A DNA stretch of 64,000 nt from Thermoplasma sp. Kam2015 (GTDB lineage Archaea > Thermoplasmatota > Thermoplasmata > Thermoplasmatales > Thermoplasmataceae), in the NCBI RefSeq assembly GCF_003205235.1, contig NZ_QJSM01000024.1, positions 1-64,000 of the forward strand. Direction: 5' to 3'. Under the pieces are notes generated by a model. It was not told where the DNA came from, did not search any database, and saw nothing but the letters and a program-made list of their open reading frames with translations. The position numbers and the translations under genes are program-made. The first letter of the stretch is position 1. Each line of letters opens with the position of its first letter. This document shows positions 4,512-40,172 of the stretch, piece after piece.

Positions 4512-5423
4512 ATGGATGTTTATATCAATTTCCCAGTTGATACTCATGTCCGGAAAATAGCAGAGAGTATACTTCAAGATTTTGATTTACACTGGTTTCC
4601 GGATTATTTTGATGCCGAGGTGCAGATCATAAAAGATCGATATGTACTGGGAAATAGAACAAAAATGATACAGACAATCAGTGCTGGTGTTGATCACATA
4701 GATGTTGCCGGTATCCCTGATAAAATCATACTGTGCAGCAATGCTGGTGCCTATTCAATATCGGTTGCAGAACATACCTTTGCTCTGATACTCTCACATG
4801 CAAAGAATATAATAGAAAATAATTCACTTATGAAATCTGGAACGTTTAAGCAGTCACCAACTACCCTTCTATATGGAAAGACTCTGGGTATAGTTGGTTA
4901 TGGAGGAATAGGAAGAAGGGTAGCAGAGATAGGAAAGGCCTTTGGAATGAAGATTGCTGCCTATACGAGATCGGGTGCTGATGATAACGTAGATAAGCTG
5001 ACTGATGATGTGGCTGAGCTGTTCGCATCTTCAGATATGATCGTCTTATCGATCCCGCTCACTGATAAAACCAAAGGCATGATAAATTACAAGATTCTTC
5101 AAAAGACCAAGAAAAATGCGTTTATAGTGAATGTCGCACGGGCCGACATAGTCCTCAAGTCCGACATGCTGAGATTCCTCAGAGAAAATCCAGATAGATG
5201 GTATCTATCAGATGTCTGGTGGGATGAACCTAACATTAAGGATGCCGATCTTCCAAATTTGATACTTTCCCCTCATGTGGCTGGAGGCATGTCTGGGGAG
5301 ATCATGGATACTGCATTACGTCTGGCATTTGAAAACGTGAAGAATTTCTTTGATGGGCATCCAAGAAATGTGGTAAAGAAGGAAGAATATAAGATGAAGA
5401 GCGAGAGATTCCTGGGGATATAA
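4512..5423 (+). CDS. D-isomer-specific 2-hydroxyacid dehydrogenase (glycerate dehydrogenase-related)
   Basis: An NAD(P)-dependent oxidoreductase of the D-2-hydroxyacid dehydrogenase family. The Rossmann motif GYGGIG is near residue 130. The catalytic Arg lies in NVARAD, Glu in WDEPN and His in SPHVAGG, so all three are present. The substrate cannot be read from sequence (hydroxypyruvate/glyoxylate or another 2-oxoacid). ATG 4452 would add ~20 hydrophobic residues (RKKPSDIHKPYFLILVIV) before the family-like start MDVYINF, so I prefer 4512 or 4509. The stop abuts the next gene's ATG. As I recall, a T. acidophilum homologue has a crystal structure. Confidence 0.88.
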   Translation: MDVYINFPVDTHVRKIAESILQDFDLHWFPDYFDAEVQIIKDRYVLGNRTKMIQTISAGVDHIDVAGIPDKIILCSNAGAYSISVAEHTFALILSHAKNIIENNSLMKSGTFKQSPTTLLYGKTLGIVGYGGIGRRVAEIGKAFGMKIAAYTRSGADDNVDKLTDDVAELFASSDMIVLSIPLTDKTKGMINYKILQKTKKNAFIVNVARADIVLKSDMLRFLRENPDRWYLSDVWWDEPNIKDADLPNLILSPHVAGGMSGEIMDTALRLAFENVKNFFDGHPRNVVKKEEYKMKSERFLGI

Positions 5424-12763: not shown

Positions 12764-12930
12764 GCTACTCCTCAGCTGAAGCATCGGAGCTTCCTGATTC
12801 AACGACCGACCTCTGCCTGTACGGATATATTCCGTACAAGCCCGATGTTGCGATCTCCACAGGCGTGAATTCGGATCGCACCGATCCTACTTTTATAAGT
12901 CCGATCTTCCTTATGTTCTTGGCGGCATTC
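12760..12930 (-). ncRNA. Candidate omega-RNA (reRNA) scaffold at the element's right end
   Basis: TnpB guide RNAs derive from the 3' end of tnpB and the right end. Here this stretch holds, on the minus strand, a GGATCG/CGATCC hairpin, a perfect TGTACGGA/TCCGTACA hairpin, GAAGC/GCTTC and a terminal AGCT/AGCT pair. The same elements are kept in the TnpB-less copies although they encode no protein, which argues for RNA-level function. The guide would be the ~16-20 bases beyond the end, that is the antisense of 12740-12759. The 5' limit is a guess. Confidence 0.6.
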
Positions 12931-13994
12931 AGATCCCTGTCTATAGTTAATCCGCACACATTGCAATGATATATGCGATCTGATAACTTCAGATCATGCT
13001 TTACGTTACCGCATCTTGAACATATCTTAGATGATGGATCGAATCTTCCTATCTCTATTATATTCTTTCCATATTTTTCTGCTTTCCATTCCAGTTTCTG
13101 CTTGAAGGAATAGAAAGAAACATCACTTAGACTCTTCGATATATGATGGTTCTGCATCATTCCATGTACGTTCAGATCTTCGATGACTATGGTATCGTAC
13201 TGCTTGGCTATCGCAGTCGATATTTTATCATCGAAGTCTTCACGCATGTTTCTCAGCTTCATGTACTCCTTCTGTAATTTAAGTATATGCTTGCTTCTAT
13301 TCTTCGATCCATTCTGCTTTCTCGATAACTGTTTTTGTAATCGTCTTATTCTTTTCTCTACCTTCTTTATGAATCCTGGATTCTCTATTGCTATACCATT
13401 CGATAAGGTTGCAAATTTTTCGATGCCTAGATCTATACCAACGGAGTTCTCTTCAGATAATGGTTTCTTCTCTGGTAGTTCTTCCTCATTTTCATATATA
13501 ATAGAGCAGTAATAGTATCCTGAATCCTTTGTTATTATTATCTCATTTATGTCCCTTATTTCTGATAGCTTATCTTTAGATCCCTTGAAGTATATGCCTT
13601 CAGAGAACTTTGGGAAATAGATCCTGTTTCCTTGAATTTTGATGTGCTGTGGTACTGCAAAGAATTCGTTCCTTTCCTTCTTCCTGAATCTTGGATGTTC
13701 TGCGTTCTTATGGAAGAAGTTCTTGAATGCATTATCGAGAAAGCGTAGAGACATCTGAAGTGATTGGGCGTTGATCTCGTACAGCCATGGATATTCCTTC
13801 TTGAGTTCGATGAGCATGTTATTTGTGTCGAAATAGTTCAGAGAAGATCTCTGTGCATCCCTATGCGTTATATAGTATTCATCCCTCCTTTTTAGAAAGT
13901 AATTGTATACGAATCTACAGCTGCCAAAGTGCTTCTCCAATAATATTTTCTGTCCTTCGTTTGGATACAGCTTTACTTTGGTGGCTGTTATCAC
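12765..13994 (-). CDS. tnpB: TnpB RNA-guided nuclease, full length
   Basis: 409 residues. N-terminal OrfB helix-turn-helix-like region (~1-45). RuvC-like nuclease with D188 in VGIDLG, E272 in VIEDLN and D352/D354 in TIDRDLNAAKNI. Zinc finger C325/C328 and C344/C347. All catalytic positions are intact. It starts at GTG 13994, with TATA-like AT-rich DNA at 14003-14031 inside the element. The last ~15 codons also form the right-end RNA structure. TnpB proteins cut DNA next to a TAM using the omega-RNA, favouring retention of the element after excision. Confidence 0.95.
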   Translation of the reverse strand: MITATKVKLYPNEGQKILLEKHFGSCRFVYNYFLKRRDEYYITHRDAQRSSLNYFDTNNMLIELKKEYPWLYEINAQSLQMSLRFLDNAFKNFFHKNAEHPRFRKKERNEFFAVPQHIKIQGNRIYFPKFSEGIYFKGSKDKLSEIRDINEIIITKDSGYYYCSIIYENEEELPEKKPLSEENSVGIDLGIEKFATLSNGIAIENPGFIKKVEKRIRRLQKQLSRKQNGSKNRSKHILKLQKEYMKLRNMREDFDDKISTAIAKQYDTIVIEDLNVHGMMQNHHISKSLSDVSFYSFKQKLEWKAEKYGKNIIEIGRFDPSSKICSRCGNVKHDLKLSDRIYHCNVCGLTIDRDLNAAKNIRKIGLIKVGSVRSEFTPVEIATSGLYGIYPYRQRSVVESGSSDASAEE

Positions 13995-36071: not shown

Positions 36072-37331
36072 TCAAGGATCTCTGTCACCTTTTCTCTCTT
36101 CAGGGAATTTCTCCCTGCTCAATTGGAATTTTGAAATGGCGGCCAGGAATTCTTCTGTTCCAATTCTTGGATCGAGCCCGGAAAGAAGATCACGTTTGCT
36201 TGCAATACTGTCCTCCACGAAAGCTTCTGGTATGCCCTTCAGTCCAGCAATCTTCTTGATCGCGTAGCTCACACCCGATGCCTGATAGCCAGCGGCAGAA
36301 TATTCGTATACATTGTTCAGAAGGATCCCGTCATCCATATGGATCTCAGAGACCTTACCGACATAGCGCCTTGCATCATTTCTCATCTCAACTATGATGT
36401 CAACGTTCATCAGGCTTGATTCCGGAATGGACAATGGAGGTGATCTGAGCCGCCGGATAAGTCCGACCGGGCTTCCAGAATGCACCGTTGTTATTCCCTT
36501 GCGACCGGAGGCCAGATAGTTGAAGAAGGTGTTTATATCGTTTCCTCTGATCTCTCCGGCAATTAGATAATCCGGGTTCCTGTAATGGATTATATCGATT
36601 ATGGACTGCATGGATAGATCCTCTATCCCAGGCTTCGGCTGAAGCAGCATCATATTTTTACCCTTCAGATTGAGCTCATGCGTGTCTTCGATGATCGTCA
36701 CATTCGTAAGCGGATCTAAGAACATGGCAATTGCGTTGAGAAATGTGGTCTTCCCGCTTGCGGTCGAACCGGTTATTATTATATTCAATCTTGATTCTAT
36801 GGCCTCCCAGATATACGCCATAACTTCAGGGGATATGGTGCCATTCCCTATCAGGTTTGCAGGATTGTATGGGTTAGATCTGAGTTTTCTTATGGATATT
36901 GTTGGCCTGGCCACGTCATGATGCACTATGTTGATCCTCAGATTTCCGAATGAAATGTCCACTATGGGATTGTAAACCGAGAGCGTCTTTCCAGATCTCT
37001 GGGCAAGATGCTTTGCGAATCTTCCAGCTTCATACTCGGTGAAGAATATGTCTGTACGCATGCTGCCGAGCGTCCTGTGGTATATGTAGACATAGTTCTC
37101 AGGCAGTACCGTTATATCTTCTATGTCAGGATCTTCCACAAGCGGTTCAACCTTTCCCATACGGTTGATGTAGTCATCAACAAATCTCTCGATCTGCGAT
37201 CTTGTTATGGCATCTATGTTGTTCTGTGCAGAAAAAACATCAAGCGATATCTCATGGGCACTGCTCAGATAACGCAAAGCCATTATTGCGATATCATCCG
37301 AATATTTGCCCTTGACCTGGTAAACACTCAT
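36072..37331 (-). CDS. Type II/IV secretion system ATPase (GspE/TadA/ArlI family)
   Basis: The active motor of the four-gene filament operon. Of 419 residues, the N-terminal ~170 form the N2 domain (IRKLRSNPYNP). Walker A GSTASGKTTFLNA (~194-206), the Asp box VTIIEDTHEL, Walker B DYLIAGEIRGND and the His box TVHSGSP follow. These are all the residues needed for ATP hydrolysis. It is last in the operon, its ATG overlapping the preceding gene's end by 4 bases. It drives assembly of pilus-like subunits with the two membrane proteins upstream. Confidence 0.93.
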   Translation of the reverse strand: MSVYQVKGKYSDDIAIMALRYLSSAHEISLDVFSAQNNIDAITRSQIERFVDDYINRMGKVEPLVEDPDIEDITVLPENYVYIYHRTLGSMRTDIFFTEYEAGRFAKHLAQRSGKTLSVYNPIVDISFGNLRINIVHHDVARPTISIRKLRSNPYNPANLIGNGTISPEVMAYIWEAIESRLNIIITGSTASGKTTFLNAIAMFLDPLTNVTIIEDTHELNLKGKNMMLLQPKPGIEDLSMQSIIDIIHYRNPDYLIAGEIRGNDINTFFNYLASGRKGITTVHSGSPVGLIRRLRSPPLSIPESSLMNVDIIVEMRNDARRYVGKVSEIHMDDGILLNNVYEYSAAGYQASGVSYAIKKIAGLKGIPEAFVEDSIASKRDLLSGLDPRIGTEEFLAAISKFQLSREKFPEERKGDRDP

Positions 37332-38068
37332 AGCGATCCCGCCAGAAGAAGGAGGAGCCCCGTCACAAGACTAAGTATGCCAGCGTACAGCGACCCCGGT
37401 ATGATATTGTCATAACGCACTATTCCAAGATATAAACCAGTGGCATAAGATTGGGCTAAGAGGATTATGGAAGAAAGAAAGACCATACCGTGACCATTGG
37501 AACGAAGGAAGTAGAAATCAACTATCACCATCACCAGTACGAATATGAGGAAGGATCCTATCACGAGACCAACATAGTTTTCTGAGGTCTGTATAACATT
37601 CTTCAGCCTTGTGGACCTCTCGTTCATGTAGGTTGAGAGGAACTGCAGTGTCTCGCCTGCTTTTCCAGTATTGTCAGCATTCTTCAATACAGCCGAGACA
37701 AGGGCAAGATCCGGCGATGAACTGCCTTCAAGATAATTAGATACCTCCTCTATCGTGTTTCCATTCTTCATCATCTCGATGGCTTTTTCCACCTCCTTTC
37801 TGATCGGCCCAAGATCTTCATTTTTTATCATGCGCAAAACCGAATAGAGGGAGAGTCCGTAGCTCGAGTAACCTGAAAGATCCCTGACAAGCGAGGGAAC
37901 CTGCATATTCTTTGACTCGATGTTCTTTGCAGTATCTATGAAACCTGCGCCTACGAATATCATAACGGCCGAAAACAGGAATATTATCGTTATTATGAGA
38001 TTCTTAAGTATACCACCCATGACGACTCCGATGAGTGCTATTATGGCTGAATAGATCCATCTGTTCAT
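37328..38068 (-). CDS. Type II/IV secretion F-domain membrane protein (TadC-like)
   Basis: 246 residues with helices near 7-45, 165-190, 195-215 and 222-245 surrounding a cytoplasmic helical bundle (~50-160). This is the GspF/TadC layout, with the ESSSPDLALVSAVLKNADNTGKAG-like central stretch (SSPDLALVSAVLKN) typical of F proteins. It carries a single F domain, so it likely pairs with the next gene's product to form the platform. Four-base overlaps with both neighbours show tight coupling. Confidence 0.82.
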   Translation of the reverse strand: MNRWIYSAIIALIGVVMGGILKNLIITIIFLFSAVMIFVGAGFIDTAKNIESKNMQVPSLVRDLSGYSSYGLSLYSVLRMIKNEDLGPIRKEVEKAIEMMKNGNTIEEVSNYLEGSSSPDLALVSAVLKNADNTGKAGETLQFLSTYMNERSTRLKNVIQTSENYVGLVIGSFLIFVLVMVIVDFYFLRSNGHGMVFLSSIILLAQSYATGLYLGIVRYDNIIPGSLYAGILSLVTGLLLLLAGSL

Positions 38069-38907
38069 ACTTCACCCCTTATCCTCTCAGTGAAATACCC
38101 TATCACTATGGCTGTGGACACCAGCAACAGCATAGATATTGCAAAGAACAGTACTGAGCTGTTTCTTATTGATATTATTGATCCGGTGAGGTAGAGCAGT
38201 ATTGGGAATGCTATGGCGACGGCCACATAGCTCTCAGCGGCCAGACCAAGAGAATCTAGAGAGAGCTTCGATCTGTTCTCTTGAATTCTCCTGTAATACT
38301 CAAGACGATCCCTCAGAAATGCTGTTAGATCTGAATTGAGAAGGATCGAGAGTCTTATCCCGGAGACAAACCTTGAAAAATCGGGCGAAGCGCTCACCTT
38401 CTCGCTGCGTTCCAGCGCGCTCAGAAAATCATAACCCATCGCGAACATGAAGGAGTTTACCCTCTGCGATTCCTTTGCGAATTCCCCGAGTTCCTTTATC
38501 CCAGCAAGCTCCCTGATCATAGAATCTGCCGACACCCCTGAAAGCGAGAGACTATAAGCGATGGCCAGGGCGTCCGGCATAACATACTCCACGCCGTGCT
38601 TTATCTCCTTCACCCTGATCTCTGGCAGCGTGAAGAGGTAATAGATAGCTATCGCATATATCAGAAAAGCGGCGGATGAGATCATCACCCAGAATGCATG
38701 CGCAAAAAAATATGACAATAGGGCAACTAGGACTATCAATATCGCTCCCCCAATGGCATATTCATAGGCTGATATCAGGTATGTCATTGCCCCTGCATTC
38801 ATCCTGGCCTTCACCATCAGATCCTCGTACTTCTTCACGGTTGCCTTGGGTATGATGCGTGCGATGCTTCCATCTATAGCCGACCTGACGCCTGCATATC
38901 TGATCAT
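38065..38907 (-). CDS. Type II/IV secretion F-domain membrane protein (TadB-like)
   Basis: 280 residues. Helices near 45-85 and 220-278 flank a cytoplasmic helical domain (~90-210). SLSGVSADSMIRELA and the later KLSLDSLGLAAESYVA match the F-domain pattern. Together with the downstream 246-residue protein it forms a split platform, as in Tad-type systems, instead of the single two-domain ArlJ/PilC protein. It overlaps both adjacent genes by 4 bases. Confidence 0.82.
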   Translation of the reverse strand: MIRYAGVRSAIDGSIARIIPKATVKKYEDLMVKARMNAGAMTYLISAYEYAIGGAILIVLVALLSYFFAHAFWVMISSAAFLIYAIAIYYLFTLPEIRVKEIKHGVEYVMPDALAIAYSLSLSGVSADSMIRELAGIKELGEFAKESQRVNSFMFAMGYDFLSALERSEKVSASPDFSRFVSGIRLSILLNSDLTAFLRDRLEYYRRIQENRSKLSLDSLGLAAESYVAVAIAFPILLYLTGSIISIRNSSVLFFAISMLLLVSTAIVIGYFTERIRGEV

Positions 38908-40172
38908 GTCCTGCCCTCCGCATAATTCCTGATCCGATCATCAAGCAGCGCTTTGAATTCAGCTTCTCCAATGGATCTCGCCATCCGCCTGTATATGCCG
39001 CTATATCCACTGAATATCAGATCCCTGTTCTCATTGGCCCTGAACGGAACGTTATATAAAACCTCGGATCCCTCTATCCTATCATACTCATAAATTGAAT
39101 GAACGTACTGCCCGTCCTCTGAGAGCTGTATGACGATATCGAACAATGATATCATATCTCGCGAAAGTCCAGTTGACGGATCAGAAAATAGCGATGACAG
39201 ATTTTCTATATTATCGATATCCATAGCCGATATTGTAGTATGCCCTGTTGTGATTGCCTGCACAGCTGTAGGAAGATCTTGCGCTGTGAGACCGTTTACG
39301 ATTATGAAATCCGGCCTCTGCCTCATGGCTGTGTTTATGAGATCAACCTTGCTGATCTCCATATTGAAGACTGTCTTTTCCCTGGGACTCATATATATTA
39401 CGTTCCTTGGAGACTCGTATCTACCATTTTCGCCTATGTATGCGATCTTCTTTTCAACGCTTATCATCCCTATCAGATAATAGATTATCGATATCTTCAT
39501 CGGCGTCTCCGGTCCTATGATGACGATCGATCTCATATTCTCAAGGGCTATGCTAAGATAGACGGAGACCTGAGGACTCTTCATCCTTGACATCATTTCA
39601 GGTTCTGAAACGGCGCGCCTGCGTTCCAGATATACTGAAGATCCCATTGGCGTGACATCGTCACCGAACGTGACTAAAGCCTTGAAATTCTGAAAGGTTC
39701 CATAGGCAATCGGGCTGCCACTCGATATCTTCTTACCCATCATCTGCGAGATTCTGATGGCTATGGAATCCAGATCCTCACGGTTCAATATTATATTGGT
39801 CTCGTAGTAGTGCCCGCCCGCCTGAACTATCACAGGACTGTCATAGCCATTTGCTATGATCTTCTCTATCCCATCGTTTATGTACAGCGGATAGATTTTT
39901 CTGAGACCGGATAGATATCTATTGATGAAATAATCCAGAACGAAAGGATCCCTTATCCGGTAGATGTTCCTGTATCTCGCAGTGATCTCCCTCAGATTCC
40001 ATTGTGATATCTCTCCAGAGATCGACGTTATTTCATTTATCACCATCCTTATTGCATCCCTGACGTTCTGTCCCATGTCAGGCTCCACTATACGCATATA
40101 ATCCTCAGATTCAATAGAATAACGTATGCCCTCCTCACTGCGATATTGAGCCTGCACGGAATGAAATCCCAC
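38904..40172 (-). CDS. GspE/TadA-like protein with degenerate ATPase motifs
   Basis: First gene of the operon. 422 residues aligning in layout with the ATPase at 36072-37331. The P-loop is changed to GPETPMKIS (Lys kept, Gly before it Met, Thr replaced by Ile). The Walker B line is RPDFIIVNGLTAQD where the active copy has the G-E-I-R sequence. The His box became SAMDIDN. The flanking TTGHTT and RQRPDFIIV still mark the family. It is probably catalytically dead and may form a mixed ring or a regulatory subunit. GTG start at 40172 (V6 is an alternative). Confidence 0.75.
   Translation of the reverse strand: MGFHSVQAQYRSEEGIRYSIESEDYMRIVEPDMGQNVRDAIRMVINEITSISGEISQWNLREITARYRNIYRIRDPFVLDYFINRYLSGLRKIYPLYINDGIEKIIANGYDSPVIVQAGGHYYETNIILNREDLDSIAIRISQMMGKKISSGSPIAYGTFQNFKALVTFGDDVTPMGSSVYLERRRAVSEPEMMSRMKSPQVSVYLSIALENMRSIVIIGPETPMKISIIYYLIGMISVEKKIAYIGENGRYESPRNVIYMSPREKTVFNMEISKVDLINTAMRQRPDFIIVNGLTAQDLPTAVQAITTGHTTISAMDIDNIENLSSLFSDPSTGLSRDMISLFDIVIQLSEDGQYVHSIYEYDRIEGSEVLYNVPFRANENRDLIFSGYSGIYRRMARSIGEAEFKALLDDRIRNYAEGRT

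Follow-up and report, generated by a model that had tools for sequence, protein, structure and literature searches.

In a 64,000-nucleotide stretch of the genome of Thermoplasma sp. Kam2015 (hereafter the window, i.e., the whole stretch of DNA that was analyzed), an operon of four genes was characterized that encodes two related secretion ATPases, named E1 and E2, and two platform proteins, named Fa and Fb. The two ATPases have lost complementary parts of the active site: E1 lacks nearly all residues of the nucleotide-binding (cis) side but has kept the arginine finger that acts in trans on the neighboring subunit, and the reverse is true for E2. The reading that is favored, with reasonable confidence, is that these genes encode the machinery of a type IV filament (pilus), and that its motor would be an obligate mixed E1/E2 ring holding at most three composite ATP sites. 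The four genes are:

38904..40172, minus strand: E1, FlaI/GspE2-type pseudo-ATPase; start GTG at 40172, 422 aa (417 aa if the start is the GTG at 40157)
38065..38907, minus strand: Fa, platform protein with a single T2SSF domain (1e-10), N-terminal-half type
37328..38068, minus strand: Fb, platform protein with a single T2SSF domain (7e-12), C-terminal-half type
36072..37331, minus strand: E2, ATPase of the FlaI/GspE2 type, 419 aa, cis catalytic residues all present

The four open reading frames (ORFs) fill exactly positions 36072-40172 of the window, and each of them overlaps its neighbor by 4 bases (E1/Fa at 38904-38907, Fa/Fb at 38065-38068, Fb/E2 at 37328-37331). A preliminary description of this DNA, made from its letters, had reported four genes with such overlaps and two single-domain F proteins among them, and it was correct on both counts. 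The comparison with 2OAP revealed the homology of both ATPases to FlaI and archaeal GspE2 (E1, 4e-28; E2, 7.5e-50).

Results

Reciprocal loss of active-site residues

In this family an ATP site is shared by two subunits: one contributes its N-terminal domain (NTD) and its RecA domain, and the RecA domain of the following one contributes an arginine finger. Structures of the CpaF ring are available for several nucleotide states. They place Walker A K287, Asp-box E312, the Walker B residues E357 and R359, and HIS-box H382 in the nucleotide-binding subunit, while R347 on helix 9, which is equivalent to FlaI R326, reaches in from the neighboring subunit (PMC12019362, PMC11300603). In our own interpretation, CpaF D215, which steadies the finger, may sit in the nucleotide-binding chain. 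The residues of E1 and E2 were mapped onto CpaF by alignment, and a numbering check returned the published CpaF numbers exactly. The following elements were located:

39492..39515, minus strand: E1 degenerate Walker A, aa 220-227 GPETPMKI; the first Gly and the Lys are kept, the P-loop Gly6 and Thr are gone
39420..39434, minus strand: E1 degenerate Asp box, aa 247-251; the Glu equivalent to CpaF E312 is replaced by Arg
39315..39323, minus strand: R284-Q285-R286 of E1, the trans arginine finger motif, which is kept (CpaF R347, FlaI R326)
39285..39296, minus strand: E1 degenerate Walker B, aa 293-296 NGLT where GEVR is expected
39219..39221, minus strand: E1 Asp318 in place of the HIS-box His
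36747..36770, minus strand: E2 intact Walker A, aa 188-195 GSTASGKT
36582..36584, minus strand: E2 Tyr250 at the position of the trans arginine finger
36546..36557, minus strand: E2 intact Walker B, aa 259-262 GEIR

The same picture was obtained for all five Thermoplasma species. In E1, Gly6 of the P-loop is replaced by Met or Leu and the Thr by Ile or Tyr, both Glu residues of the Asp box are gone, the Walker B Glu is replaced by Gly or Thr and the equivalent of R359 by Thr or Glu, the HIS-box His by Asp or Glu, and the hinge Arg by Glu or Ala. The P-loop Lys and the finger motif RQRP are present in E1 of each species. In contrast, E2 has retained every cis residue that E1 lost, and its arginine finger is replaced by Tyr; the next residue (finger+1) is Arg in four of the species and Asp in the fifth. 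The Asp equivalent to CpaF D215 is likewise retained in E2 and replaced by Tyr or Arg in E1. A full active site for a homo-ring, comprising the cis motifs and the trans arginine, is thus encoded by neither gene, because E1 is devoid of the former and E2 of the latter. The preliminary description had stated that the Walker A, Walker B, and His boxes of E1 are broken, which was verified and extends to the Asp box. It had also called E2 intact, and this holds for the cis motifs but not for the finger.

The replacement of the finger is not the result of a misplaced alignment. The spacing of 10 residues to the Walker B Glu is fixed, and pairwise alignments with FlaI concur in equating R326 with R284 of E1 and Y250 of E2. 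Within the genus, the E1 segment LINTA.RQRPD is invariant at 10 of 11 sites, compared to 136 of 422 sites for E1 overall, a comparison that was made post hoc, after the motif had been noticed.

Active sites outside Thermoplasma

The tally for the order comprised 84 E1 and 85 E2 rows; locus L089 (genome G004), which has two E2-like proteins in another cassette, and the ArlI rows L095 and L140-L144 were left out. For the class, 20 loci of other orders were hand-picked from genomes with a match (311 of 400, members of the order included). One E1 row has no Walker A because the contig ends there, the E2 rows L068 and L072 stop before the finger, and one E2 row of the class sample has unidentified residues at the finger. 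In the order outside Thermoplasma, the motifs of E1 are normal in 79/79 rows (Walker A in 78/78 and hinge Arg in 76/76 covered rows), and all 78 covered E2 rows have the finger and the complete set. The class sample gave the same result, with finger and Walker B in 20/20 E1 and 18/18 covered E2 rows, and one E2 row with Ser at the HIS-box column. In total, Walker B is kept in 99/99 covered E1 and the finger in 96/96 covered E2 outside the genus.

It follows that inactivity of E1 is not a general trait of the Thermoplasmatales, as broken E1 was found in 0/79 rows of the order and in 0/20 rows of the class sample outside Thermoplasma. The preliminary description had spoken of a conserved inactive paralogue and had named orthologues with normal motifs as evidence against it. 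Such orthologues were found in all 99 cases outside the genus, and the proposal survives for Thermoplasma, where E1 is inactive by its motifs in 5/5 species and is not decaying. As far as the literature could be searched, the reciprocal loss of cis and trans residues appears to be new and specific to Thermoplasma.

The asymmetry is also visible in a broader set of positions. Outside Thermoplasma, 51 columns are invariant (>=97%) in both E1 and E2. In Thermoplasma, 6 of them are kept by both proteins, 25 by E2 only, 8 by E1 only, and 12 by neither, and R284, R286, and P287 are among the 8 that only E1 kept.

A further difference between the paralogues was observed at the first His of the HIS box (TGH), which is present in E1 and ArlI, and is mostly replaced by Arg or Lys in E2 throughout the class. 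In the order outside Thermoplasma, this position is His in 69/79 E1 and Arg or Lys in 65/78 covered E2, and in the class sample His in 20/20 E1 and Lys in 16/19 E2. The Thr-Gly-His region of PilB joins in inter-chain contacts (PMC5424180), and the order-wide asymmetry fits a mixed ring that is older than Thermoplasma.

Selection on E1 and fold of its RecA domain

The ratio of non-synonymous to synonymous substitution rates (dN/dS) of E1 against the closest species was 0.086 (NG86) and 0.110 (YN00), and two other comparisons with an estimable dS gave 0.043-0.053, resulting in four estimates for E1. For all four genes the ratio was below 0.2 in every comparison that yielded an estimate. Many pairs were saturated in dS, and YN00 returned no value for several, so that these ratios rest on the pairs giving values. 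Judged by these estimates, purifying selection acts on E1, and chance decay does not account for the motif losses. A decaying pseudogene, which the preliminary description had named as a finding that would speak against its proposal, is ruled out by the range of 0.04-0.11.

AlphaFold models were calculated from six-row alignments (proteins of the window and of loci L077 and L078). The mean predicted local distance difference test (pLDDT) score of the E1 model was 59.9, with block means of 67-89 for much of the RecA domain and lower values around residues 249-271, while the quality of the E2 model (48.1) did not permit a fold search. The RecA-domain model of E1 could be superimposed on FlaI (4ii7) and GspE2 (2oap) with Z 22.3 and 3.1-3.3 A over 235-237 residues. 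When the whole E1 model was superimposed on FlaI, GspE2, and CpaF with Foldseek, the root mean square deviation was near 13 A and the NTD was not resolved, so that only the RecA part is meaningful. In the model, R284 lies where helix 275-285 ends, shortly before the Walker B strand 289-295. The modeling suggests that E1 folds like FlaI in its RecA domain, and both proteins belong to the FlaI/GspE2/TadA family of secretion ATPases, by homology and, for E1, also by fold.

Distribution of the dual-ATPase cassette

A search of 117 genomes of the order yielded matches to E1 in 96 and to E2 in 99 of them, archaellum ATPases being counted in. At 93 loci of the order (archaellum loci and L089 were left out, and genomes with matches such as G093, G097, G106, and G109 lie outside this set) every ORF was scored with profiles of E1, Fa, Fb, and E2. 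The full quartet E1-Fa-Fb-E2 was found on one strand at 72 of the 93 loci, including the four Thermoplasma loci, which share this order with the window; the other 21 mostly have contig ends near the genes. In the class sample the quartet was complete at 19/20 loci, and L153 was without an E2 match. In the tree the E1 rows lie on one side of a branch with support of 98/96 and the E2 rows of one with 93/83. The Thermoplasma rows fall into the expected groups, and the profile scores agree with the tree that E1 and E2 of Thermoplasma are orthologous to those across the order. By E1, the nearest named relatives were Thermoplasma sp. KMA_Bin19 (95%) and Thermoplasma sp. FL (77%), the only two that a scan of the genome collection gave.

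The dual-ATPase cassette itself is already known. Golyshina and colleagues described the cluster CSP5_0712-0715 in Cuniculiplasma and likened it to Aciduliprofundum (PMC5155288), Makarova and colleagues reported two ATPases within one locus of Aciduliprofundum boonei (PMC4858521), and Gaines and colleagues named the genes CdiPE1, CdiPFa, CdiPFb, and CdiPE2, termed the C. divulgatum pilus enigmatic, and regarded its two ATPases as unique among archaeal pilus operons (PMC12448462). Given its class-wide spread, the cassette is not unique to Cuniculiplasma. The preliminary description had known of no archaeal filament system with an active and an inactive ATPase. Clusters with two ATPases and two platform proteins had thus been published, but no active/inactive pair of this kind was found in the literature searches, and the word "walker" has 0 occurrences in the main text of the CdiP paper (PMC12448462).

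Several other observations concern this family of motors. Locus L089 (contig C66 of G004) carries, at 5255 and 8562, a second E-Fa-Fb-E cassette, in which both ATPases are weakly E2-like and which represents a different dual-ATPase system. No close FlaI-type ATPase was found in the genera g2, g5, g11, and g14 of the family; g2 and g11 gave only marginal E2 matches, and in g5 such an ATPase was found in 0/10 genomes. Pilus and archaellum motors appear to have been lost in these four genera.

Operon start, putative pilins, and further features

A TATA-like element was picked by eye upstream of the operon:

40190-40181, minus strand: TATA-like element AAGTTTAAAA

It lies about 27 nt ahead of the GTG at 40157, and conservation of E1 within the genus starts at the Val of this codon. 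This spacing and the onset of conservation indicate that E1 probably starts at the GTG at 40157 instead of that at 40172. A scan for bacterial-type promoters was uninformative, as its matches were at the shuffled level. Two Pilin_N matches above the cut-off were found in each of the five Thermoplasma genomes, which is only suggestive of a pilus, and the pilins are probably PilA-type proteins encoded elsewhere in the genome. No match to the prepilin peptidase family PF01478 was detected in Thermoplasma, and archaeal enzymes may be too diverged for PF01478.

A separate ArlI gene was found in these genomes. In the genome of the window it is split over two frames (locus L003 ~1012-2635; G000 C18 ~221916-223539), while it is in one frame in other Thermoplasma genomes, and the split may reflect either a genuine frameshift or a fault in the assembly. 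The same genome has a separate ATPase of ~596 aa with a PF00437 match (L004; G000 C17:3699-4067), which presumably resembles the PIN/KH-type PINA family. The window also contains an IS605 OrfB/TnpB-type transposase gene with a Cas12f1-like TNB domain (12765-13994, minus strand).

Discussion

E1 keeps the trans residue and has lost nearly all cis residues, while E2 shows the reverse, and an alternating ring is the simplest account of this. In such a ring E2 would provide the nucleotide-binding side and E1 the arginine finger, and productive sites would form at the E2-to-E1 interfaces only, three per alternating hexamer. A ring of E2 only would have a finger at no site, and a ring of E1 only would have no catalytic site. 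The motor would couple to the split Fa/Fb platform, which would assemble the PilA-type pilins. In F1-ATPase, catalytic and non-catalytic subunits alternate and the latter donate the arginine finger, and the sites of E1 would be non-catalytic like the alpha sites there; the subfamily is unrelated and the analogy is one of working only. Among the roles that the preliminary description had offered for the inactive paralogue, the hetero-hexamer is now the best supported.

The main alternative, which is regarded as unlikely, is that E2 forms a stand-alone homohexamer that tolerates the loss of the finger, and that E1 serves apart from it as an inactive scaffold or regulator, e.g., stacked under the motor or binding Fa. 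PilT and PilU, which were reported to form separate rings, provide a precedent (PMC6821130), and the Arg at finger+1 in four of the five Thermoplasma E2 might substitute for the finger. In the fifth species this residue is Asp, the finger Arg is universal in covered E2 outside the genus, and a scaffold would have no reason to retain RQRP while other active-site residues go. It is very improbable that the two ATPases are an extension/retraction pair in which E2 drives assembly, and E1, formerly the retraction ATPase, lingers after retraction was lost in Thermoplasma. Both ATPases are complete elsewhere in the class, and an analogy to PilB/PilT has been raised (PMC12448462). A PilB/PilT pair would comprise two catalytically competent ATPases, and E1 of Thermoplasma has lost its motifs; moreover, the loss is selective and not random, E1 is not decaying, and C. 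divulgatum, which has both genes, showed no twitching (PMC12448462). Least credible of all is an erosion of the whole machine in Thermoplasma, with the motif losses as drift. The Thermoplasma stem branches of the tree are indeed very long (4.17 for E1, 2.46 for E2), but open frames and gene order are retained in all five species, the low dN/dS extends to all four genes, and E2 has all of its cis residues.

Several points weigh against the mixed ring. The loss of an arginine finger is not necessarily fatal to activity in every ring ATPase. The five species inherit one event, so that the coupling of the two losses is a single case (n = 1), and the long stems make some alignments of NTD sites less sure. 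E1 may still bind nucleotide weakly, as the P-loop Lys is present in 5/5 species and the CpaF R223 position is Lys in two, Arg in two, and Glu in one of them, a column that is made less clear by a nearby alignment gap. The overall pLDDT of both models is low. In genus g20 (L085-L088; G002, G003) the E1 gene lies apart from Fa-Fb-E2 and has kept all motifs, and this detached, motif-complete E1 is at the same time a natural test of a continued E1/E2 partnership. Lastly, although hetero-rings have been proposed within this superfamily (PMC6711533), a test in bacteria favored separate homohexamers for PilT and PilU of Vibrio cholerae (PMC6821130).

The pair differs from the systems that resemble it most. 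The CdiP machinery of Cuniculiplasma divulgatum has, like Thermoplasma, two FlaI/AapE-type ATPases that flank two platform halves and pilins that are encoded elsewhere. In its genus (g4 loci such as L041, which we take to be C. divulgatum) both ATPases are motif-complete, in contrast to the reciprocal loss in Thermoplasma. FlaI/ArlI and archaeal GspE2 share the fold with E1 (Z about 22) and the sequence family with E1 and E2, but each is a single self-sufficient homohexamer with cis and trans residues. The site architecture is also common to the CpaF/TadA Tad pili and the Epd pili, which have one ATPase and two single-domain platform genes (PMC6668835), compared to two ATPases in the Thermoplasma cassette. 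PilT/PilU of type IVa pili are likewise two paralogous motor ATPases of one system, and the report of separate homohexamers sets them apart from the proposed E1/E2 ring (PMC6821130). The Thermoplasma pair stands out in two further respects: to our knowledge, Tad and Epd pili have no pseudo-ATPase of the same family, and PilT/PilU are not known to have lost catalytic residues reciprocally.

E1 and E2 are paired class-wide, and because of this the mixed ring probably predates Thermoplasma, which would have made the mixing irreversible. More tentatively, and with somewhat less than even confidence, the motor of the class Thermoplasmata in general may be a mixed E1/E2 hexamer on a split Fa/Fb platform, with the site divided in Thermoplasma between the cis residues in E2 and the trans Arg in E1. 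CpaF and PilB have been described as C2 machines, while in an alternating ring no more than three sites can be finger-complete (C3 symmetry). The Thermoplasma pair provides a clean natural split of cis and trans residues. If the proposal is true, its motor would represent the first obligate hetero-ring among type IV filament motors, and just three of its sites would be functional.

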